Position numbers and translations under genes: made by a program. Positions 3,178 to 54,469 of a stretch of 64,000 nucleotides of DNA are shown one piece after another. The DNA is from Heterostelium album PN500. Lineage: Eukaryota > Evosea > Eumycetozoa > Acytosteliales > Acytosteliaceae. The notes below the pieces were generated by a model, which did not search any database, was not told where the DNA came from, and saw nothing but the letters and a program-made list of their open reading frames with translations. Each line of letters begins with the position of its first letter. The stretch's first letter is position 1. The stretch covers positions 1 through 64,000 of the forward strand of contig NW_008805089.1 of assembly GCF_000004825.1 (NCBI RefSeq), in the 5' to 3' direction.

Positions 3178-3634
3178 ATTTACAATTATTATTATTATTA
3201 CAATAATTGTAATTAATTTTCAGATTCTTCAAACAAAAAAATCTCTTTGGATAATGGAAAAAAAATTTAAATTAAAATTTTTTTAAGAATAAGAATTAAA
3301 AATCTTCGCGCCTTTTTGATTGTAAATATCTTTATGATGTCGATTCCTTCTCAACTTTGATAATCAAATAATAATATTTTTGAATTATAATAAGTGTGAA
3401 TTAGAATAGTTAGTTATAAAGTTGTAGTAATACTTTTATCGTTAGTTCTTCTGATCTGTTTGGTTTCTATTATTTTCATTCATTTATTAATTTAAATTAT
3501 TGATTGGTTTGTTAGACTGTTTGAAGATATATGATTTTTGGAGTTGATAAGATTATAATAAATAATTCTTAAATGTTGTTGTTGTTGTTGATGTTGTTGT
3601 TTTGATAGTTATTATTTTTTTTTTAAAATATTTC
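3178..3634. other. Intergenic region between two minus-strand genes
   Basis: AT-rich spacer holding the 3' flank of the AP-3 mu gene and the upstream region of the ankyrin gene. It contains a (GTT)n run near 3574-3600 and several A/T homopolymers. I see no gene or convincing RNA in it. Confidence 0.6.
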
Positions 3635-4710
3635 TTAAGCACGAACTTGGAATTTTCCAGCACGAGTTACACTTCTTACACCCTTAAATGGTTTATATTT
3701 TTCACTACATGCAAGTGAGTCAACCTAAAGAAAACAAAGCAAATCAAGATGAATTAATAATTGTTATGAATGTACTTTGTTGTAAAAGTTATCAATATCT
3801 TACACCTAAACCAGAAATAGTAAACATTGCAATCTTAAATTGTACCATAATCGATGGGTTAGCCTCTGGCAATGGCTGACCTGCAGCTAGTACTACATTA
3901 CCAGAGAGCATCGGAGTTTTCTCTTTTGGAATCTTTCCGATGTTCCATTTACAAACTTTATCTTCTGTGAAGTGTCCACCTACGTTGGAAGTGAGGTTGA
4001 CGGCTGTCGTAGTCTTTGGGAATGGAATGGTAACAAATACATTTTCAACCGGTTTATTATTGGTGTTCTTTGAACCGACCAACACATTTACACGACCTCC
4101 ACCCTCACCAAAACTAATCTGTGGTTTTACATATATTGGTAGTTGATTTATACCTTTAATTCTATAATAATAACAAAAATAAATAAGTATCCAAAGCAAT
4201 AATCAATAATTATTATTATTATTACTGTTACTATCATTCATACCTATAATTCATTAATTTAAAAGATCCATCTGGTGGGATAAAACTTAATACACGGTCA
4301 TTCTCCCAACGTGAATATCTGACACATGGATGAAAACTGACATCGTCCAACATTCTTGGATTATTAAATGTAAGTGTTAAGTCTGGCATTCCACTAAGTT
4401 TACAGTTGACTTGAATCTCTCCATTGACTTCACATGATACAACAAATCCATTGCTTTAAATTTTAAAAATAGTATATATTAATATTAAAACAACAACAAC
4501 AAAACATCCAAATATCTATAACTATAGAAAACATACCTATCGATAATACAATCAATCTCTTCAATGATATCAAAGAATATTTCATTAGATGTATATTTAA
4601 TACCTGTTTTACGCCATTGAATTGCACCTAATGATCCATCTTTAATAAAATAAATAGAAGAAACAAAGAAAAATAAAGAGTTAGATTATAACATATGTTA
4701 GTAATGATTA

Positions 4711-31138: not shown

Positions 31139-32586
<1,448 letters not shown>

Positions 32587-34249: not shown

Positions 34250-37200
34250 ATGGATCAAGTATTAGATATTCTTGTTCAACAAGATTATCTATTTTGCAGA
34301 GGTAAGGATTGTGCAGAAGCAATACTTCCTTATTCAAGTTTGTATTTGTTTCAGGAAGGAAATGGTGGATATCATTTGGCTACATTTGAAACACCTGATG
34401 TTGCCACTTCATGGTATCTAGCACCAAGCCACAAACCAAACAAATTCTGTAAAAACAAGACGTTCTGTTCAAAGTGTAAGATGGCAATTGGTAATGAAAT
34501 ACTAGCAAAGAAACCGGATGGCAGTAATCTCTATAGTTTCGATCGTGAGTGTACTGCGCTGGGTAAGAGTCACTTGGACATCACCTATCCAAAGAAGAGA
34601 ACTTGGCAACTCATCGTTGAATCCGCAACCAATGGAAGTCTAATCAAGTCATACGATATGAATTCACCTGAATTTCAAGGTGATCAAATCGATTCGGATT
34701 CAGACGACGTCGATCAAGAGGATCTACCTAAACAACCGTTGACTTATCAACAAACAAGATATCCCGAGAGGATCAATGTAGATCAATTGAAGACACGTGG
34801 AATAAAACCGCGAGAATATCAAATAGAATCATTGGCACGAGCCATTAAGAAGAATACTCTATTGGTGATACCAACTGGACTTGGTAAAACATTGGTAGCT
34901 ATCATGTTGATTCAACAGATGGTTGCAGTGAATCAATGGACACCGGAACAACAAGCGGGGAATCATAAGAGAATGGTGTTGTTCACCGTAAATACCAATC
35001 CATTAGTTGAACAACAAGAGAAAGCAATCAAAAAACACAATTCAACATTGACTGTTTTAAAGTTGAATAGTGAGAACCGATTGTCTGACCGTAAGATCAA
35101 TTTTAAAGTGCAATCTAAACGACCCGATATCATTGTGGCAACATGTGATTCCATTATCAATTTGTTCAACACTCGTAAGCTATGTATCAGTGATTTCCAT
35201 ACGATTATATTTGATGAAGTTCATCATGCGACTGGCGATCATTCCTACACGAAAGTAATGACACACTACAAAGAAATGGAGGCCAAATTATACCCGAGAA
35301 TTCTTGGATTATCTGCAAGTCCATCCAGTGGTGAAGATAGGATAAAGATCACTGGGAATATCATGAAGATGGAGAAGGTGCTTGCATCTAGTGTATTCCG
35401 TCCGAATCTACCACCAACCATTAATTTGGAATCCAATCAACTGGTATTCACTCTGACGCAGGAGGAGAAGGATTGTTTCAAGGTGGTAAAAGAAAAGATC
35501 AATGAGAGGTTGAAGACAATCATGATGGAAAGCAATTACTTTTTGAAAGGAATGGAGTTGTCAGATAATAATCACCCATCGTTTAGAAGCAACCTAAAAC
35601 AATTCTATACTTGGACAGTCCATAATGATCTCAAAGTCTCCAATGAATTGGGTGATATTCTTAGAATCTTTGAATGGCTGATGGTCACCGGTGTCGAAGG
35701 ATTCAATCAATTCCTGAATTATCTCGAGAATGATCTGGCCAGTACTGCAATTCAAGAAGGTCGTTCAAGAGATTTCATTGAGGAGTTGCATAACCTTGTC
35801 GTTGAAAAGGGAGGAAAGCGAGTAGTGAATTCATCGAGATACCAAAGAGTTGTTGAGAAACTAACAGAGAAGCTCGACAGCGAAGAGAAAGTTATTAATT
35901 TTCGTGGTATTATCTTTGTGAAGAAGAGATCTACATCTCGTTCATTGGTTCATATGTTAAAGAAAGAACCAATCAATTCAAAAGTCAATGCGAAAATCAT
36001 TGTTGGACACAATGGTGAGGATGGAATGGACTCTGAGAAACAAGAGAGAATCATGGTGAAGTTTAGAGAAGGTCAATCAAAGCTACTGGTTGCAACCAGT
36101 GTGTTGGAGGAAGGAATCGATGTTAATACATGTAATTTCGTTCTCTGTTTTGACGATGATTTGGATATGAGATCAATGATCCAGCGAAGAGGACGTGCAA
36201 GAAACAAAGAAGAAGGAGAGTTTTGGTATGTTAAATCTCATGAGGAGGTCAACAAGATGGATATTTTGCGTAGATCGGAAGCACTACTCAACCAAGTCAT
36301 CACGGAAATCATGCATCAAGACAAGTCGTCGAATGAAGAGGTTACCTATTCGATGGTTGATGATTGGTCGCTTGTTGCCAACAGATTCCAACCACTTGGA
36401 AACCGACAGGAAGCATATCTCTCATTCTATAACTCACCTGTAGAGTTGGAGAAGCTGCTTAGGTTGTCTTTGAGATCCAATATCCTGGATGTTCGAAGGG
36501 AGAAAGCAGCTCAGGAATCTAGAAACTATCTGACCAACTATCTACTAGTTGGAATTGGATTCGAAGATGGTGGGGGTGGAACGGATGAAGAGAAAGCAGA
36601 GTTGGAAGCTAGCTTGAGTACATTGTTCAAAGCCATCTACAGTGTGAAAGGTTGGTGGGCTAAAGTTACACGTCCGGTGGTTCTTCAACTGCCCGTTCCA
36701 AAGAAAGATGAGAATCAACCTTGTTTCCGTACTCTGGCATCTTTTTCCGCTGGCAACTTTGTTGATCCGACCACCTACAAATCCGAGATACTATTCACAT
36801 GGGCAGTGATATTCTATGGCAATGAAAGACAGTTGGAAATCACTTTCTTCGAAGAGTCCAATCCATATTCATCGGGGCCAACTCTAATTTTCTTGAATGA
36901 AAATATCGAGAGTTTTGCACTCTACGATTGTGATCCAGACAAGAAACAGCAACGATCATTCTATCTTGTTGTGAGACGTCCACCCATTGCCGTCAATATT
37001 GATTTCGATGATAATGAAGACGAACGTATCGATATGAGATATAGTTCTTGTGCTTATCCATTCCTCAGTCGTTGTTTTGTCTATCGTATCAATCTTGAAC
37101 CACATCAACTTGATCAATTGATTACGTTAATGAATATACCATACTATTTGGCATCAATTAAAACGGCAACATCATCATCATCTCAACATTACAATAACAA

Positions 37201-40200
37201 ACAACCTAAATTAATAACTTCTGGCAATCTTAGTAGTAGCATTCCAACCAATCCGACAATCATATTAAAAGATTTTGAAATATCTTATTTATTTGCAGTA
37301 CTTAAAAGGTAAATACTAGTAATTATTCAAATCTATTTGTCTAAATTTTTTATTAATGTTTTTATTTTTGTTTAGCAATTCTAAAACAGGATTTGGAAAG
37401 AATAATGTTCCAAAAGAATTCTTTGAATATGTGACTAATTTAGTGGTTAAAGATAGGAGATTTGCTGCATTGTATATGATACAGAGAGCAATCGATTGTC
37501 AAGAGTTTGAAAACTATCAAAACCTTATCAAAATGGATATTTCCAGTTTAGAAGAGAATTTCGAGAATGAAATTCCAGAGCACCATTTCATGGTAAAGAG
37601 TGCCTACATTACACCGACAAGAGTGATTCTAAATCTTCCAAGAATTCAACTTGGAAACAGATGTATCCGTCAGTTTCCTTCGGAGCGATTCATGTCGGTT
37701 CAATTCACAGAGGAGGATCTACAAATCCGTATTGAATATCAAGATTTCCTACTGCCATTCTATAGCCATATTCTGCTGAATGGTATCAACGTTCCAGAGA
37801 TGGGAACATTCTATTTCTTGGGTTCGAGTTCATCACAAGTCAGAAATTATCAATCGTGGTTCTATTGTGTAGAGGAGGGAGTAAATAAAGAGAGTCGTCT
37901 AAAGGAGATTCGTGAAGCGATGATTGGTAAAACCGATAGCAGTTGGTCAGCAAGAAAAGCATTGCGTGCAATGTCTCTTGTTTTTCCATCTACCATTCCA
38001 ACCATTAGAATTCCTCCACATGAATATCATGAAGGTTTAGATGATATAGTTAGAAATGATCATAACTTTACTGAAGGATGTGTAAGTAGCTTACTATTTT
38101 GTTTATTAAAAAATAATAAAAACTCAATATTAATATTAAACTGATAATTAATTACATTAGGGATATGTTGGTATTGAAACAGCAAGAGAAATAGCGATTG
38201 CTGGTAATTTCCCTCAGGATACTTCTGCCTATCAAATTAGAATCGGCGGTAATAAGGGAGTAGTCTCAGTTCATCATTCTATTAGACGTGGTATATATCT
38301 TAGGAAATCGATGAGAAAGTTCAATACAACTGATGAGCACGCTTACAATAGAACTCTTGAGGTGATAAGTGTCAGTAGTAAGAAAGCATGTAATCTCAAT
38401 CGTCAGATCATCAATTTGTTGGTTGGTCTCGGTGTGCTGGATGGATTCTTCTTGTCGCTGCAACAAGCTGCTCTCGATAAACTTGCTCACATTTTCAATG
38501 ATGAATCGGTACGTCGACATATTATGCATGAACTATCGAGTATCGATGAAGCATTTGATGAACTCGATTTAGCTGCCAACGATCCATTGATTTGCTCATC
38601 TCTCCAATTGTGTTATCTAAAGAAACTCGATCAAATCAAAGATAAATGTATGATAGAAATCGATTCTGCTCGGACAGTTCTTGGCGTCTCAGATGAATCT
38701 GGAATTCTTGGTCCTGACGAAGTATTCCTACAAATCTCAATTGATGAGGAGGATGGTCATATCTCGAGAAAAGTAATTACAGGCCAAGTGTTTGTTTGTA
38801 AGAATCCTTGTTTGCATCCAGGTGATATCAGAGTGCTGACAGCTGTCGATGTACCAGAACTCAGAAATTGCTATGTTGATGTGATTGCATTCTCTCAGAA
38901 CGGTGAAGTCCCTAATTTCAAACAGTGCTCAGGTAGTGATTTGGACGGAGATCGTTACTTTGTTGGTTTTGACCAGACCATGGTTAAATTTATCACTCCC
39001 GAGCCACCTTTTCTCGGAGATGAGTCAGCCAATACCAAAGTGGAACCACCATACGATGGATCTCACAAACAGTTGGTTAAACAATACATTACCAATATTA
39101 CACGTGGTTCACTTGGAAAGATTGCACTCAGTCATCTGGCGATTTGTGACAAGTTCTCACCGACTCATCCACTAGCCATTGAGCTTGCCATCCAACATTT
39201 CATTGAGGTCGATGCATTCAAAACTGGAGTTAACGGTAAGGTACCAGATATAGTAAAGAAACATCTTAATTATTTCAAGTTGTATCCAAACTTTATGGAG
39301 AGTTCAATGCCAAAGAAAAACTATTGGGTCTCGCACAAAATCTTGGGAAAACTTTACCAAATCTCAGTACCACTTAAAGCCATTCCCAGATACATTCCTG
39401 ACACCTTTGTTGATGAAGGACTTCTTGTGGATGGATATCAAGAGTACTTGGCCGATGCCAAGAAAACTTATACTCGTTATAAGTTTGCAATCAATTCTCT
39501 GTTGACCAGATATGATATTGATCGTGAGGAGGATATCATTATTGAATTCATCAAAGAGACAATCAACTCGATGCGTTACACCAAGTTGATTATTGATGAA
39601 CTAAAGAAATCCTATCACGAAATTCAAGATTCATTTAGAGATGAATTCATTAGAGTATTTCCTGGAAAGGATGTTGACGAGAAGAAACGTTTCAATAGTG
39701 AAGCAATACAAAAAAAGGTGTCTGCATGGTACAAGGTAGCATATTCCGATGTTGAAAATGATAAAACTCTCACTTTCTATTGGATTGTCAAGCAATATCA
39801 ACCGAAACGTAGTATAAAGACTGGTCATGAACAGCCAGATCACCTATCGACATCGATCATCAAATATCTTGGTGATCACCAGACCGATTTACTAAAAGGT
39901 TATTCTGAGCGTATCATTATGGTGACGGATCTTCTCAAATTACTAAGCCAATCGAGTTTGTTTGAAAATGTCCAAATTCACTTGTTTGGATCGTCGTCCA
40001 TGTTGTTGTTTGATCCTTTGTTTTCAGATCTGGATCTCTACATTCAAGATACTATGGATCGATTCAAAGGTGATAGAGATGCGCTATTTCTTCACTTGGA
40101 AAGTGCCCTCAGAAAGCATGAATCAAACGCAGAGTCAATCGAATATATCTCTGACACTGCAGTACCAATTGTAAAGTTCCAACTCAACAAGATCGATTGT

Positions 40201-42348
40201 GATATTTCTGCGGATTTCAACGGAATCGCAAAGACAGCAATGGTTTGCAATCTCTATTCGAAGCATCCATACATTCTTCCGATCATGCATATTGTTGTCC
40301 GATGGGGTAGAGAAACAGGTATCATCACTCACCACATTCAGAAATCCAAAGCTAGAAACTTAAAGACATGGTCATTGATATGGATGGTAATTCACTATTT
40401 TAAATCAGAGAGGATCATTGATGAAATTCAAGTCAAGAACAAAATTGAGAACAAGAGCGTCGATTGGTTCTCCCAGATTCTTGTTGAGGCTTCAAAGACG
40501 CACAGCTGTTTCTTGGCACAATATTTGATTGGATTCTTCAAGTTTTATTCGAACCGACTTGCCCAGGCATTGAATAACAAAGAATCATTTGTACTGACAT
40601 GTCCACTCGATCTTCCAAATGTACCATCGTTTGTTTTCAATGACAGTCCTGATAGTTTCAACGATCAATATCTCTTTGATATTTTCAATGTTGGGTATCA
40701 CACTCTTAGCTCAAGTCCTGGTATTCCAGAGTTTTTGAAACGTTGTCAATATGACAGGAGTAAAGTTATCAATCTAGATAAAATCATGTCTCGACATGTT
40801 TCAGGAAGTGAAGAGTATCTCGAGAGTAAGATACAAGCGCTAACCAATGCTAAACTGGAAATTCAGCCGTCGAAAAGAGGATGCCTTCAAGTGAAAATCA
40901 ATGGTGAACCTCATGAAATTCATATGGCAATCGAAGAGCTCTATAGAACTTCTATGGATATCACTTCACTACCATTCCACAGTGGAAAGAATCATGTACC
41001 AGGTGGAGGCACTGTTCTTTTGTTCAAAGGATGTAACACCATTTCCGATCAAATCAAATTTGTGAAATTCCAGAAGGACAGATCATTTAATATCCAACAC
41101 TCAATGAGACATCCAAAGATGATGCCGTTACTCAAGCATTTGAATCTTTCCAATCAGTACAAAGGAGCCAAACTAGAGTTTACCAAAACCATCTTGAATC
41201 AACTGGATATTTGTCATAAATATGTAGACGAGCAACGCTTTGGTCAAAAGAAGGTATTTGTTCGTTTTGGAAATATCTATTTATTCAATTGTCCACACGA
41301 AGGTGCAGAGTTTACCATCACCGAACTCCAAAAAGCGATTTCCAAGACAAAGAAAAGGAATTTCCAGTTGAAGCAAAAAGAGATTAGAGAAAAGAGTAAA
41401 AAGAAAGAGAAGGAGGAGAAAGAACAGAAGGGAAATGATGATGAAAATCAAACTCAGGTTTTCAATAAGAAATACAAAACCACAAGAACAGTAGAGAAGC
41501 AAAACAAACCTAATAGCCATATTCCAAAGAGTGCCTTCTTTACCAATTGTTCTGGTAGAGATGACCAAACGATATGTGGAATCTTTGAGAGTATGGGATG
41601 GACAATCACTCAGCTGAGCGCTGAAGATCAATTTGATAGTGATACTTACACACTTTGCTGTAATATGAATTCACGAGAGATTCCAGAATTCAAAGTTGGT
41701 GTCAACTCGAATCTAGAACCACCAAACAATCTCAAAAATATTGGTTTGAATTGGTTCGTTTGTGATTTGACAGAGTCTGACCACTCAAACCCACATATGC
41801 TGGATATCCGATACTGTATTCAATCCAAAAAGCATTACCAACAAGAAGCTACCGTTGCAACTGACCAAGCATACTACGAGTACATCACTCGAAAGATTGT
41901 AAAACCGAGACCACCTTCAAACAGTAGTTCTTCCGATCATCAAATGGCACCAATCATCATTCTTGATGATTTCATTGGCAACGTTTACCTAATTAGACAT
42001 CACAAGAACATCAAGTGTTATGTTCCTCCTGCTGATCACCCACTCTCCAAATATAAATTGAATGCACAAATCCATGAAATCGTAGAGTATAGAAACAATG
42101 GTTCTTTTTATGGAACAAAGTATGAGTTGGAACTTTCATGTGAACTGCCATCTCCTTTAGATACATGTGAATTTACATCTATTTTTTGGTATATATAAAT
42201 ATATAACTCTATTTTATTTTTTTTATAGATTACAATATTAATATTTAAACACCAAATTTATAGGGAGAGTGGATTAAAAGTTTTACATCGATTAAATAAC
42301 ACAGAGATATTAGAAACTCTTACAAAGAAGAATATTATTGTATTATAA
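34250..42348 (+). CDS. Helicase - RNA-dependent RNA polymerase - nucleotidyltransferase fusion protein (RNA silencing)
   Basis: Four exons (34250..37308, 37376..38081, 38161..42188, 42264..42348) join in frame to 2625 residues. Order of parts: a Cys-rich module (C16, C21, C73, C76); a Dicer/RIG-I-class helicase with PTGLGKT (208-214), DEVH (322-325), LGLSASP, TSVLEEGIDV and QRRGRAR (645-651); a cellular RdRP with the catalytic DLDGD (1515-1519) in CSGSDLDGDRYFVGFD; and a Cid1-like nucleotidyltransferase with LFGSSSMLLFDPLFSDLDLY (D1878, D1880) and DCDISADF (D1936), followed by the helical PAP/TUTase core. About 600 further residues include a KH-like stretch and a Lys/Glu-rich helix. Such polymerases make double-stranded RNA from silenced transcripts. 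Dictyostelium Rrp proteins are known to carry the helicase, and the appended nucleotidyltransferase is the striking part. RdRP and nucleotidyltransferase share exon 3, so the fusion does not rest on predicted splicing. The ATG at 34250 is the first in frame. Confidence 0.93.
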
Positions 42349-47511: not shown

Positions 47512-50500
47512 TTAGAATATGTTACCAACTCTTGGTTTGGGAGAAGGAGGTGAAGTTTGCTTTTTGGTGGTATGCATACCACTTAGCAGTGAAGTGCTGG
47601 ATAATGAAGTACTACCTGATATCGTTGCATAGCCATTGCCAATGGGTGAGCTATCTTCGTTGGCTGCGGGTTGATCGGATTCGCAGATGCTGTAGACAGA
47701 GATTCGCTTGTCCCACGACGATGCCCAGAGCTCAGAGATTCCAAAGGTGTGAGTTCGTACGGCAACCACAAAACTGACGGGATCCGAGTGTTTCTTGTTG
47801 AGCTGTTGGATGCACTGGAAGCTCTCCTTGTCAAACACCAGTATCGATGTGTCCCAACACGATGCATAGACGTAGCGGTCGTGTGCAGTCAAACTGAGTA
47901 CCTTTGATGTGATATTGTCAATCTTTTTCTTGACATTCAATTGGTCATCGAAGACACATATCGTTTTCTCACTGGATGTCCAAATGTTTCGATCGATTCG
48001 CTTTATCGTGTGAACAGTACCGGAATGAGCATCGGAAATAGTAAAGTACGTCGAGAAACTTGGATGATCATATACATAGATAACACCTTTTTCAGTACCG
48101 ATCCAACATTTCGAATCATTTACACCTTTAATAAATGCCATCGTTGAGATATGACCTTCTCCGATCTTTAAATTTATCGTCTTTTTACATTTAAATTTCT
48201 GACGAGGAAAATAAAATATTAGAAATTTTAATAAAGTAATTAATTAATATAATTATAGCTTACAGTTTTACTATAGATTTTAATTGCTGTCATATTCTTT
48301 TCTTTACAATTGGTAACAACGGATTTACCGTCATCAAAGAGGTGAGAGATATAACTGGTTTTGATAATTCTGGTTGGTTTGTATGGAACTTTGGGATCGT
48401 AGATCAAAATACCATCGGAATAGTATGCCCATATTTGAATTTCTTCATCCAGTGGATTGACAATCTTTCCTTTCGATTTTCTTACTTGTGTTATACCGAT
48501 GATTCTTGTTGATTCAGGACTGCGGTAACTAGCCATGATCGATTTCGAATTGGTGTTGAAAACAGTTACTGAACCATCGCCACAACCACACCAAACTTGA
48601 GGTTCCTGTTTGTTGTGAACGTAGAGCATACAATGGATGGCAGAGGTGAGCATCGAAGAGATAAACTCACGGAAAACAATGGGTGGATCTTCCAAAACAA
48701 ACGAGGAGCTGTGTGGAATAAATTGGCTGACCGTTGACATGGTCGGTGTCGCAGAGACAACAGAGATACTATCATCGGAATCGGCGTTGGATCCGCCAAT
48801 GTCTGCGCCACCAATGTGCAGACGCGGTGAGTCAATTGGTTCCAGACCGGCTGGCGATGGCAAGTGTCTGTCAGCAAACACTCGGGTGGTGTTGGCACCA
48901 ACAATCATATCGCTATCGTTGATACGACCTGGAGTGTCGCATGGTGACACATCCAACTGGTTGATCATCGGTGAGTAGTCGACACTGGCTTCTACAGTGT
49001 GGTCGGCTGCACGCTTGAAATCCATTTTCGTTGCCAGTGGGAATGTCTGTTGCATGTGTTTCAACTTGACAATGATCTCTTCGAACGATGGACGTTTCTT
49101 GGGATCCTCATGCCAGCATTCTTTGATGAGCGATTGGTAACTCTCTGGACACTCAACGGGGATGGTCGGTCTCAGTCCACCGATGATCTTATCCTCGATG
49201 ACGCTATTCCACTTCAACTCTTCAAAGTACTCATCGAATGGAACGTCACGAGTAATCAACTCCCAAATAACCATACCATAGGAGTAGATATCGATCTTTT
49301 CGGTGTATTGTTGGTTTTTGATGATCTCTGGTGCTAGCCAACGCCAATTCCAAACTTTACGACCTTTAATCTCCTTATCAATGTTACGAATGGATAGACC
49401 GAAATCCGACACCTTGGCAATCAGAGTATCAATGGAAGTACCACCCAACAAGATATTGGCACTCTTCAAATCTCTGTGAATAACCATTGGCTTACAACTG
49501 TGTAGGAACGACATACCCTTGGCAATGTCCATCGACAATCTCAAGATTGTATTCCAACTGAAAGAATCTGTTGTATTTCTAAGGAATTTCGATAGATCAC
49601 CATATCTCAATAGCTCTGTAATAATACAGAATGGATTCATTGATACACCTTTCAATGATACAATATTTTCATGATGTAAATCACTGTACAATTATTATTG
49701 AATGAAAAATTAATAATCAAATTTGATTGTACCGAGTTACATATTACTTACCCACTAAGCATTGCTTCATGTCTAAACTCTCTGAATTTCTCAGTTGTAG
49801 TGTCATCTTCTTCGAGATTCAACTTTTTGATTGCAACTTCCGATTGATTCCAAAGACCACGATATACATTTGCAAATGAACCGGCTCCTAGTTGTGGACC
49901 AATCTTCAAGTCTTTGAATGGAATGATAGAGAACTTGTTGCTGTGTACTGTCACTTCGAATGCCAACTCGCTCAACTTGACTTGGTGCACACCACTACAC
50001 ATCACAAAGTCATTGCCGTGCGATGCTTCTTTCTCACAGAAATCGAGTGAGAAGATAGTTGCATTCTCCTTGCGACGCGATTCAATACAGTGTGTACATG
50101 TGACATAGGTGTTGGTCAAACGATCTGGGAAATACCACATGATGAACGATGAAATGATATCGACGAGATTCTTGAGTAACTGTCCACCTTTGATGTCACG
50201 AACGGTCATCTTCAATCGATACTGACCGGGATTGTATTCAATGAAGGCTTGGCCATGATCGTTCTTCGCTGCACCTGCCCAAACCTGACCAGCCGGCTGA
50301 ATAACCATTCCACCTTGCCAAATGCAGAGTGGATCAAAGTTTTGAAGCATCTTTACAGAGAGACGCGAGAAGAATCCCTTAGGAAGGAATTGGAATTGAT
50401 AGATACGTTCGTGTTGCTGACGGATATGGTCAAACTCTGGCCAGAGCATTGCCATTACCACTGGACGCTCCTCAGAGAATAACATTGGCACGATGATACT

Positions 50501-53500
50501 GTCACCGTTGTCTCCACCGGTGTTGCTATGCATAATTTCAAACTGCTCCAAGAGGTGAGTGAGAGAGGTGTGAATCGAACGTGGATACTTTTCGTCCCAG
50601 GCCTGGTTGATACCACCCATCAAGAGGTAACCGTTCTGATGCTTCAAGTTGGTGACGGTCGAGAGTACACGTGACAACCAGAGTGGCTCAAGGAAGACAA
50701 TGTCATTGAGCTCATTATCACCGTCGTCACGGTAGTAGAGGATATCACCACAGCGCAAGAGATACTTCATGGCGTCATCGATCTGACGTGATTCCAAATT
50801 GATGGATTTGGCAATGGAGCGAATCTTGGCTTGTGAAGTGGCGGGTATACGAGAGTGCCTCGAAGCATCTTTACAGGTCTCTATCAATTGATTACGAAGT
50901 AGTACGAATGGAATTGGAACCTTTTGACGGAATTGTTTTTGTTTGGCAATAGAGTGGATCGAATGGATAAGAGCTTTGACTTGCTTAAGATTCTTGATGT
51001 TGACTTGGAGGTAGTGGAGAATGTTTGTGTAACGAGACAACAGTGTCTGTGAGATATATTGTGTTTTCTTGGATGGATCCTCAGTACTTGTACCGACTAC
51101 TATGACAATGGATCCTGGTGATTTAGCCTGAATAATTTCCATCCAATATTCGATGGTCGATTCATTCAATGCTGTCGATGGATAGGTGACCACAAAGATC
51201 GATTCCGGTGTGACAAACAATGGATGAGTAGATTGGTGAACTTCGAGTCCACTGAAATAGAACATCTTGAATGCAACGATATAGTCTGGTGCTTCAGGTT
51301 GATTGTAGATCCAGTCGGATGTTTTGATTCCAGTGAGGTCTTGGTCGTCACGGTCGGCACCACCGTTGATCTGTCCGTTGAGACCTGGAGTTGTAGCTGG
51401 CGATGGTGTAGGTGGGGCGTTGTTGCTCAATCCTTCGCGACGAGTGACACCCGACTTTTTGAGAATGTTGAAAAGATTCAGTTTGTCTGGACTCTCGTCA
51501 CCAACAAAGCAGAGTTTAACATCGTTGTTGATACAGATATTCGATTTGGAACTGGCTACCAACGAAGGATCGAGAGTTAGCGTGTTTGTCAAAAAGATTG
51601 AAATTCTCTTTTCGAATGGCGCAATGTTGATTGAGGGTGGTGTGCCAGGTGACTGTGGATTGATCAGCGAGGTGTTCAGTGGTGGCACACCGAGTAGCAT
51701 GAGTGGTGACAGATTGATGTTGTACTCTTTCACCTCTTTCTTTGGACCGATCCAAGTTACTTTGAATCGATAGCGTGTCTGTGGTTGAGCTGGTGTCGAG
51801 ACGAGTGGTGTTGCAGAGGTATCGGGTTGTTTCATCTGCGAGGAAGATGGCGCAACATGTTGCTGGTCATCGTTAGAGCTAGAGAGATGCTTTTTCTTTT
51901 CGAATTTCTCAATGAGTGAGATCATCTGACGCGAAGTTATCAGTATTTCATCGCCAAGGTTCAGTGGATAGTCGCAGAGTCTGGTCCCTGCGTTGAGGAA
52001 CCCAGGCATTCGAGTGTTCTGTGAGACTATTGCTATGGCGAATTGATTTAGATCGGTACGTGGAGTGATTGTGTTGTTGTTCTTGTGGTTGAGTGATGCA
52101 TTGACAAGAGTCATCGTTGCTGTCTCTATCGAGGTGTCTTGTTCGATCAGCTTTGTAATATTGATGGCTTCGTTGATTGCAGTGAATTCGAATGCATATC
52201 TAAAGTTACACTCTAGAATATCCATGGTTCCAATCTTGTTGCCTGCCAAAACACGATCGCTTGGGATCTGGTACGGTAGCAATCCCTGGGCGTTCTCATC
52301 GAGATCATAAAGGAATAGACCAAGACGAGTTGGATCCAACTCGATAACATGTTTGAGCAGTGTTTCTTCGATGATTGCTTTGGGATTGAGTTGAAGACTG
52401 ACAAACATAATCACTGGATTCTTGTTGTTGCCGCTGTTGTTGTTGTTCGAGGGCAGTCCGCTTCGAGGTGACTCCATTGGGTTGTTGTTTGGCAACGATG
52501 GAAACAAACACTTTAAATAAATAGAGAATGGCTGTGAAGCTCGCTTCTTCTCTGGTCTGAAAATAATAGTACATTCATTGTCGACGTCATACATCCACAA
52601 TGGTAGGTCGGTATCGGTTAGAACTTCACGTGCTTCACTTGCGTTGTCGTTGCCATTGTTGTTCACACCCAGAATCACCAGTTGCTCACTGTATCGCACC
52701 ACCAGCTCATAGTCCTGAACATCTTTGTTGTAGCTGATATCGGACATCTCTTGGTCGTTGAGAAGTCGCGACATCAAAGCACGAATATTAACGGTGAGCG
52801 GCACACGTATATTCCTCACGGTCATATTGGTATCGGACGTATAAATATGGAAAGTAAGTATATCTTTTGATTTCGATTGTCTTTCCAACACTGCACATCG
52901 TCGCTTGTACGACTTTCCATTGTAGGTGGAACGCAAGTCGTCCGACGACCACTTCTTGAGCTCGATGTGTGAATCTTTCTTGGGTGCGAGTGACGGTGAG
53001 AATTGCGTGAGCGACGAAAGCTTGAGTTCCGCTTCGACAATGCCGGTGGTCGATCTGATTCTGCCGGTGGTGTGATGGTGGTGTTGGTGATGCTGCTGCG
53101 GTGAAGCGTGAATCGATGTTCGCGACGATGAACTAGTCAGACCGAGTCCACCCATCGATATCGCTTTCAAACCATTCAAAAGCTCCTTGAAGACACCGTA
53201 GAGATAGTAGTTTCGCTCGCCATTCGCAACTCCATTATCTTTTGCCTTTTTGAAAAATTCATCGAGCTGCAACGACTCTGTCTTTAGGTAGTGAATGAAA
53301 TATGCGTACGCTTCATCTTTGTTGACAGCTGACGGCTTCAAGGGTGGTGTGAACGATTGGCTACGTCGCAACTGACTGACTATCATATTAAAGAATTCAT
53401 TTAGCTGTTGCTGTATACCAAGTGATCCAATCTTTTGACCATTTGTTGATTTTGATAAAATATTATTGTTGATGTTGTTGTTGTTATTTAAACTGGTGAT

Positions 53501-54469
53501 ATTTGGAGTGCCACCTATCTCTGGTAGACTCTTTTCGAAAACAAGATCACTTACGATCTTTGATATCTCTACATACACCTTTTTGGTGAGTGCAGATGCA
53601 GATGCCGATGGTTTCATATTAGCAAGTGTTGGAACGATCAACTTGCCAAAGAAAATACGTTTTACCAACTCGATATTATAACGTGGTTGATCACCAGTGT
53701 TGGAGATTGAACTTGTCTCACTGTAGAGTAGATGCATTAGGTAATAGGTTTGTGGTGATAGTTTATCGTGTGATTTACAAATAAAGTTGATGATCGATAT
53801 TGCAAATTGAATGAGTGCTTCGTCGTTGTTTAGACTGCTACCATTACCACTATAGCTGCTATAGTTACTATAGTTACTGGTGTCACTGCCACAACTAAGA
53901 TCAAAGCTAGGTGTTAGTGATGCTGACAATGTTCCTGTTGCTGTTGAATTCTGTTGTGAAGAAGCACCACTATTATTTAAACAAAAATGTTGAATGTTGG
54001 CTGCCAACACTTGCATCTGACTAGCTAGCAACGCTTCAACCGTTGAACTCGAATGTATCTTTAAATATGCTGATGTCATTCTATTAACGACACTAAATAG
54101 TTATAATGTTTTGTTATGTGTTAATATATTATTATGAACTTTGAAATCGAGCCTCACTTCCTGTACTTACTTTTTATAACTAAAAAAAGAAGCATCATCG
54201 TTTGGACCGACGGTACTTTGTTGTTGTAAGTTGATTCTAATGTACACACGTAATAACTCGAGGAAATGGTCATCGAGTAGCGATATAAGTGAATTGAAGA
54301 TCTCGGTTGTCTTTTGTGCTGAAACACCTCTGCAAAAGTTGTCCATCAACGTAAAAGAGAACGTTGGATCGAGTGATATAAATATATTTCTGAAGAGCAT
54401 CGGTTTACCACCGTTGGCTCCACCACTACCAATACCACCACTACTTGGACTTGTTAAATGATTATCCAT
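47512..54469 (-). CDS. Roco-family protein kinase with RasGAP-like N-terminus, degenerate Roc, COR and WD40 domains
   Basis: Four exons, complement(47512..48198, 48264..49683, 49752..54092, 54171..54469), splice in frame to 2248 residues. In order: a RasGAP-like all-helical region (about 20-330, with RNIFISLDPTFSF, RMTSAYLKIHSS, IELVKRIFFGKLIVPTL); ubiquitin/FERM-like modules (about 420-950); a Roc region whose P-loop reads FVGDESPDKLNL and so lacks the GK[ST] core; COR (about 1130-1400, with FLEPLWLSRVLSTV); a TKL kinase (about 1500-1765, with GAGSFANVYRG, VIHRDLKSANILL, DFGLS); and WD40-type repeats to the end. This is the LRRK2-related architecture, but no leucine-rich repeats are apparent. 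The kinase should be active. GTP binding by Roc is doubtful. Paralogue assignment among the dictyostelid Roco proteins was not possible. The ATG at 54469 is the first in frame. Confidence 0.88.

Follow-up and report, generated by a model that had tools for sequence, protein, structure and literature searches.

The RNA-directed RNA polymerases (RdRPs) RrpA, RrpB and RrpC of Dictyostelium discoideum are described as large proteins, each combining a helicase with an RdRP domain (PMC3661229), and the Dicers of the same amoeba are reported to lack a helicase, which is encoded by the RdRPs instead (PMC4894637). An earlier note on the DNA analysed here had stated that Dictyostelium RrpA-type proteins carry the helicase, in agreement with both papers (PMC4894637, PMC3661229). 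That DNA, the window, is the first 64,000 nucleotides of contig NW_008805089.1 of Heterostelium album PN500. The gene at 34250-42348 on its plus strand encodes a protein of 2625 amino acids (aa), referred to below as the 2625-aa protein, which has the build of the known dictyostelid helicase-RdRP, extended by a nucleotidyltransferase (NTase), possibly a KH-like fold, and a conserved C-terminus.

In other organisms, comparable activities are divided among separate proteins. The RdRP Rdp1, the helicase Hrr1 and the non-canonical poly(A) polymerase Cid12 of fission yeast work as a unit, the RNA-directed RNA polymerase complex (RDRC; PMC2965749), in which Hrr1 is called the S. pombe orthologue of ZNFX-1, a superfamily 1 (SF1) helicase (PMC9276528). 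The RDR complexes of Tetrahymena contain NTases, and uridylation of the template supports conversion to double-stranded RNA (dsRNA) in vitro (PMC4937312). In C. elegans, RDE-3 places pUG tails on the 3' ends of cleaved RNA and the tail recruits an RdRP, while RdRP mutants still make viral pUG RNAs (PMC12645942). The cooperation of free-standing RdRP and NTase equivalents, to which the earlier note had appealed, is documented for RDRC (PMC2965749), Tetrahymena and Paramecium (PMC4937312) and RDE-3 (PMC12645942).

Gene model and domain organization

Joining 34250-37308, 37376-38081, 38161-42188 and 42264-42348 yields 2625 residues followed by one terminal stop when the model is rebuilt from the DNA; splicing is predicted, and all three introns run GT..AG. 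The AT-rich introns, together with the build of the gene and its runs rich in Asn and Gln, are in keeping with a dictyostelid. The single reading proposed in the earlier note, with all of its named motifs, was recovered in this way, the motifs starting at aa 208 (PTGLGKT), 322 (DEVH), 645 (QRRGRAR), 1515 (DLDGD), 1865 (GSS), 1877 (SDLDL) and 1934 (DCDIS). Pfam matches to helicase, RdRP and NTase confirm that all three lie on one chain. One uninterrupted exon had also been claimed for RdRP and NTase, and this holds for the catalytic C-terminal part of the RdRP and the NTase, both in exon 3, but not for the start of the RdRP domain, which lies in exon 2. Within exon 3, a 1345-codon open frame is common to the RdRP catalytic core and the NTase. 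The features are listed below, with reference to a paralogue on contig C9 of the same genome.

34250..37308, plus strand: exon 1, aa 1-1020, with the N-terminal Cys-containing region and the superfamily 2 (SF2) helicase (gene model, Pfam)
34286..34585, plus strand: N-terminal region with Cys/His residues common to the C9 paralogue (alignment)
34802..35326, plus strand: helicase domain 1 (PF04851/PF00270; PTGLGKT, DEVH; Pfam), nearest PDB chains of Dicer/RIG-I type
35867..36199, plus strand: helicase domain 2 (PF00271; QRRGRAR; Pfam)
37309..37375, plus strand: intron 1, separating helicase from RdRP, with a counterpart of equal position and phase in the C9 paralogue (gene model, alignment)
37376..38081, plus strand: exon 2, start of the RdRP domain (gene model, genome profile search)
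37608..39360, plus strand: RdRP (PF05183), aa 1098-1655, with DLDGD at 38938-38952, broken by intron 2 (Pfam)
38082-38160, plus strand: intron 2, inside the RdRP domain (gene model)
38161..42188, plus strand: exon 3, one open frame with RdRP core, NTase, possible KH-like fold and C-terminal module
39898..40248, plus strand: NTase palm (PF22600), aa 1835-1951, with G1865 S1866, D1878, D1880 and D1936 (Pfam)
40249..40716, plus strand: NTase central/PAP-associated-like region, aa 1952-2107 (the GLD-2 alignment extends into it; profile comparison)
40759..40968, plus strand: possible KH-like fold, aa about 2122-2191, no GxxG loop (several lines of evidence, each weak)
41533..42186, plus strand: conserved C-terminal module, aa 2380-2597 (conserved in the C9 paralogue)
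42189..42263, plus strand: intron 3, matched in position and phase by an intron of the C9 paralogue (gene model, alignment)
42264..42348, plus strand: exon 4, including the stop codon (gene model)

A paralogue with the same architecture

The genome searched comprises 32.9 Mb in 39 contigs, C3, C7, C9 and C17 among them. PF05183 occurs at two places in it, the gene at 34250-42348 (as two exon pieces) and C9:165081-166745, where the match spans the whole profile (1-582) inside a 1977-codon frame. PF22600, the NTase palm model, is matched at C9:167283-167642, 0.5 kb downstream of the RdRP, and translation puts both domains in that one frame; judged by these matches, the added NTase is not unique to the gene in the window. 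The C9 gene model encodes 3057 aa, its start codon and splice sites being the analyst's choice. In full-length alignment, the C9 protein and the 2625-aa protein have the same domain order and are identical at 869 of 2504 positions (34.7%), made up in part by the helicase (170/508), the RdRP (233/550), the NTase palm (44/154, or 28.6%) and the region that follows it (69/165). Two introns are homologous in position and phase, one at the helicase/RdRP junction (aa 1020), the other ahead of the final exon (aa 2598); intron 2 of the 34250-42348 gene is absent from C9, and an intron inside the C9 helicase is absent from the 34250-42348 gene. The palm residues G1865, S1866, D1878, D1880 and D1936 are identical in both copies, for which the chance at 44/154 identity is 0.0016 (5 of 5).

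As the paralogue shares the order, the open frame, two introns and the NTase catalytic residues, the fusion must predate the duplication and looks maintained in both copies. The 1345-codon open frame, and an architecture repeated in a paralogue that is 34.7% identical, likewise make it more than a chance juxtaposition. Across the genome PF22600 is matched 10 times, at 8 places; of 14 control genomes searched in the same way, 4 gave matches, and in one of them a match exceeded the cut-off. When the PF22600 loci were compared, the two fusion NTases scored 294 and 292 bits against each other, and the other places reached at most 33.5 bits per aligned piece. Because the fusion NTases are so much closer to each other than to the rest, the NTase joined before the duplication, in one fusion event.

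Helicase and RdRP domains

In the 2625-aa protein, Pfam places ResIII at aa 185-359, DEAD at 189-360 and Helicase_C at 540-650. The best 60 of 121 PDB matches to the helicase include the AncD1D2 ancestral construct, which we take to be a reconstructed Dicer (expectation value, E=1.2e-48), Dicers (1.9e-35) and RIG-I (1.7e-31), and hold no UPF1, Sen1 or ZNFX1 chain. On these matches the helicase is of the Dicer/RIG-I type, belonging to SF2, and it stands N-terminal to the RdRP, as in the dictyostelid Rrp helicase-RdRP proteins. PF05183, the RdRP model suggested in the earlier note, is matched far over its gathering cut-off (E=5.3e-126; 422.1 bits, cut-off 23.8), with the catalytic DLDGD at aa 1515-1519. 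The share of the domain in exon 3 corresponds to profile positions 167-580, DLDGD included, and in a PDB sequence search this part is closest to plant RDR2 (5.1e-49) and farther from QDE-1.

The NTase domain

The palm is matched by MTPAP-like_central (PF22600; E=3.6e-11, 43.7 bits, cut-off 27), whereas the two NTase models named in the earlier note, PF01909 and PF03828, are not matched at E up to 1. The residues of the Cid1/GLD-2-type palm, namely the GS motif (G1865 S1866), DxD (D1878, D1880) and third Asp (D1936), are all present. A PDB search with the single sequence found GLD-2 nearest (E=8.1e-6), with Tailor also matched, and a two-sequence profile matched Tailor (3.2e-8), Trf4 (1.6e-6; the PDB name of the entry is Poly(A) RNA polymerase protein 2) and CutA (1.7e-5). 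When two further NTases of the genome were compared by profile, the match covered aa 1854-2107 and so extended past the palm (probability 93.7, P=2e-7). By sequence, then, the domain is a palm of the Cid1/GLD-2 kind.

KH-like fold and terminal modules

The AlphaFold models were made from two-sequence alignments of the 2625-aa protein and its C9 paralogue. At aa ~2122-2191, the prediction is strand-helix-helix-strand-strand-helix, with blocks at a predicted local distance difference test score (pLDDT) of 56-75; no other stretch of this model has blocks that reach 62-75. Using the model of the region from NTase to KH, rows 1-35 of the best 50 of 934 Foldseek rows are KH proteins (rows 17, 18 and 31 presumably so), with a best E of 0.028 and 0 matches at E up to 0.001. 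A vigilin KH domain was matched by the two-sequence profile (E=0.0074), the KH_1 model stayed below its cut-off (12.5 bits vs 21.5), and no GxxG is found within aa 2096-2200. These results hint that a KH-like fold may follow the NTase.

The C-terminal module of the 2625-aa protein has no family match and, in an alignment search, no PDB relative by sequence; two sub-threshold matches of the C9 copy are taken for chance. Its AlphaFold model has a mean pLDDT of 45.8, and Foldseek gave 0 matches at E up to 0.001 and nothing coherent. In the C9 paralogue a long insertion rich in Asn, Gln and Thr (L007:7620-8804) separates the KH-like part from this module, where the 2625-aa protein has just a short Lys/Glu-rich linker. 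At the other end of the protein, C16, C21, H42, C67 and C76 are invariant in the two sequences, and the N-terminal region could possibly be a zinc module; it was likened by eye to the C-terminal zinc domain of RIG-I, and PDB sequence searches found no relative.

Proposed mechanism and alternatives

Somewhat more probably than not, the 2625-aa protein amplifies silencing in the manner of the dictyostelid Rrp proteins and brings its own template-tailing enzyme, with the 3'-tailing of templates coupled in cis. The Dicer-type helicase domain would engage and remodel structured or double-stranded target RNA, and the NTase, perhaps held to the RNA by the KH-like fold, would add nucleotides to a 3' end freed by slicing or another kind of cleavage. 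On this tail the RdRP of the same chain would find a site for initiation or recognition, and the second strand that it makes would serve a Dicer lacking its own helicase. As NTases mark RNAs for RdRPs elsewhere, template 3'-end tailing beside the copying polymerase is the likeliest role, and we infer an active NTase that acts on templates, with tailing and copying coupled in cis. The broader proposition, that both RdRP genes found in the genome bring their own 3'-tailing enzyme and perform template licensing and dsRNA conversion in cis, is put forward tentatively, as a little short of probable.

Several points weigh against this mechanism. PF03828, the PAP-associated domain, and PF01909 are without a match in the 2625-aa protein at E up to 1. 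AlphaFold modelled the NTase-to-KH region poorly (mean pLDDT 40.0), and no NTase is among the best 50 of 934 Foldseek rows for that model; the NTase fold is thus a reading of sequence. By analogy with C. elegans, the fusion would also not be needed for tailing and copying to be coupled, since RDE-3 and the RdRP are separate there and viral pUG RNAs persist in RdRP mutants.

The NTase could act instead on products (small RNAs or transcripts made by the RdRP), to sort them or turn them over, which is unlikely but deserves the most weight of the alternatives; none of the results speaks directly against it. CDE-1/PUP-1 is linked to EGO-1, one of the C. elegans RdRPs. Tailing of small RNAs by PUP enzymes of C. 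elegans is reported (PMC11457939), and the position of the NTase C-terminal to the RdRP is as compatible with products as with templates. A catalytically weak or dead module serving in RNA binding or scaffolding is a less likely alternative still; the paralogues share only 28.6% identity in the palm, the PAP_assoc model is unmatched and the fold model is poor, but both copies retain all five catalytic-motif residues, at the chance of 0.0016 given above. It is very improbable that the NTase tailors another class of RNA (mRNA or non-coding RNA) and is part of the chain just for localisation, as the fusion to the RdRP is maintained in both copies, even though the relatives include GLD-2 and Tailor, which act on mRNA and microRNA. 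Finally, a gene-model artefact, in which two genes were merged through faulty splicing or assembly, can be set aside as extremely improbable: splicing is predicted and an unspliced exon 1 would end at a stop by the splice site, but the RdRP core and NTase lie in one open frame, the whole RdRP and NTase lie in the 1977-codon frame of the paralogue, and the helicase-RdRP intron has the same place and phase in both genes.

If cis-coupled tailing of templates is correct, the marking of RNA for silencing and its copying could occur in a single machine. How RdRPs select their templates is central to RNA silencing, and worms, yeast and ciliates involve a separate NTase in it. That two paralogues have kept the fusion is an argument for tailing and copying as parts of one reaction path. 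The 2625-aa protein would also allow tailing to be separated from copying by changing two NTase residues in a single protein.

Other silencing genes and neighbouring loci

RNase III was found by genome profile search at two places, on C17 and at C7:144 kb, neither of them near any of the 10 matches to the helicase of the 2625-aa protein, the nearest on C7 being ~1.5 Mb off. RNase III places with no adjoining Dicer-type helicase match would agree with the helicase-less Dicers of D. discoideum. Piwi genes are also present at two places in the genome. Two adjacent genes on C3 each encode a fusion of an SF1 helicase of the UPF1/Sen1 type (AAA_11, AAA_12) and a Cid1-type NTase that includes PAP_assoc; they resemble Hrr1 and Cid12 on one chain without an RdRP.

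L030:2175-4922: SF1 helicase-NTase fusion on C3, both domains in one 915-codon frame
L031:1285-3237 with 3289-4053: second SF1 helicase-NTase fusion on C3

Within the window, a TIP49/RuvB-like ATPase gene lies upstream at 31222-32586. Adjoining frames at 48240-54100 on the minus strand carry Roc (just under the cut-off)-COR and protein kinase domains and are probably one Roco kinase gene, and the open frame at 58904-62377 matches the HAP2-GCS1 gamete fusion factor (33.2 bits, cut-off 27.4).

Comparison with known systems

No helicase-RdRP-NTase chain is described in the literature searched, which covered titles and abstract openings with subscription papers mostly outside its scope; automatic annotation may exist. 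The IMG/VR and GTDB genomes gave no confirmed relative, although both hold few or no eukaryotes and are uninformative on other amoebae. RrpA, RrpB and RrpC of D. discoideum are like the 2625-aa protein in helicase and RdRP; the available parts of their descriptions make no mention of an NTase, which they may well carry. Ten primers printed in two papers (PMC4559204, PMC3661229) were translated and slid along both paralogues, and one of 64 comparisons, primer 0035AB against aa 2417 of the 2625-aa protein (7 of 500 shuffles), was reached by at most 10 of 500 shuffles, which is about chance level. The rrpC primer pair, taken jointly, was equalled in 124 of 200 shuffles on the 2625-aa protein and in 2 of 200 on the C9 protein, at its NTase. 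Should the Rrp proteins of D. discoideum share the NTase, an established laboratory RNAi model would have an unrecognised catalytic domain; the label "helicase-RdRP" for such proteins can overlook a third enzyme.

The fission yeast RDRC has the same three kinds of activity, but in three proteins. The idea that the gene fuses the "whole complex", RDRC in one chain, is rejected as stated because it fails for the helicase: that of the 2625-aa protein is nearest Dicer/RIG-I (best 60 of 121 matches) and of the SF2 Dicer type, whereas Hrr1 is ZNFX-1-like and belongs to SF1. The C3 fusions, as here, have a helicase and a Cid1-type NTase on one chain, but with a UPF1/Sen1-type helicase, no RdRP and a clear PAP_assoc domain. 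Tetrahymena Rdr1 complexes and Paramecium RDR2/CID2 pair an RdRP with NTases, as here, but as separate subunits (PMC4937312). C. elegans RDE-3 with RRF-1/EGO-1 is alike in that an NTase marks RNA for an RdRP, but there the proteins are again separate. The RdRPs RRF-1 and EGO-1 are also served by DRH-3, a Dicer-related helicase. The helicase-RdRP combination was thus already known in dictyostelids, and the elements added here are the NTase, the possible KH-like fold and the C-terminal module.

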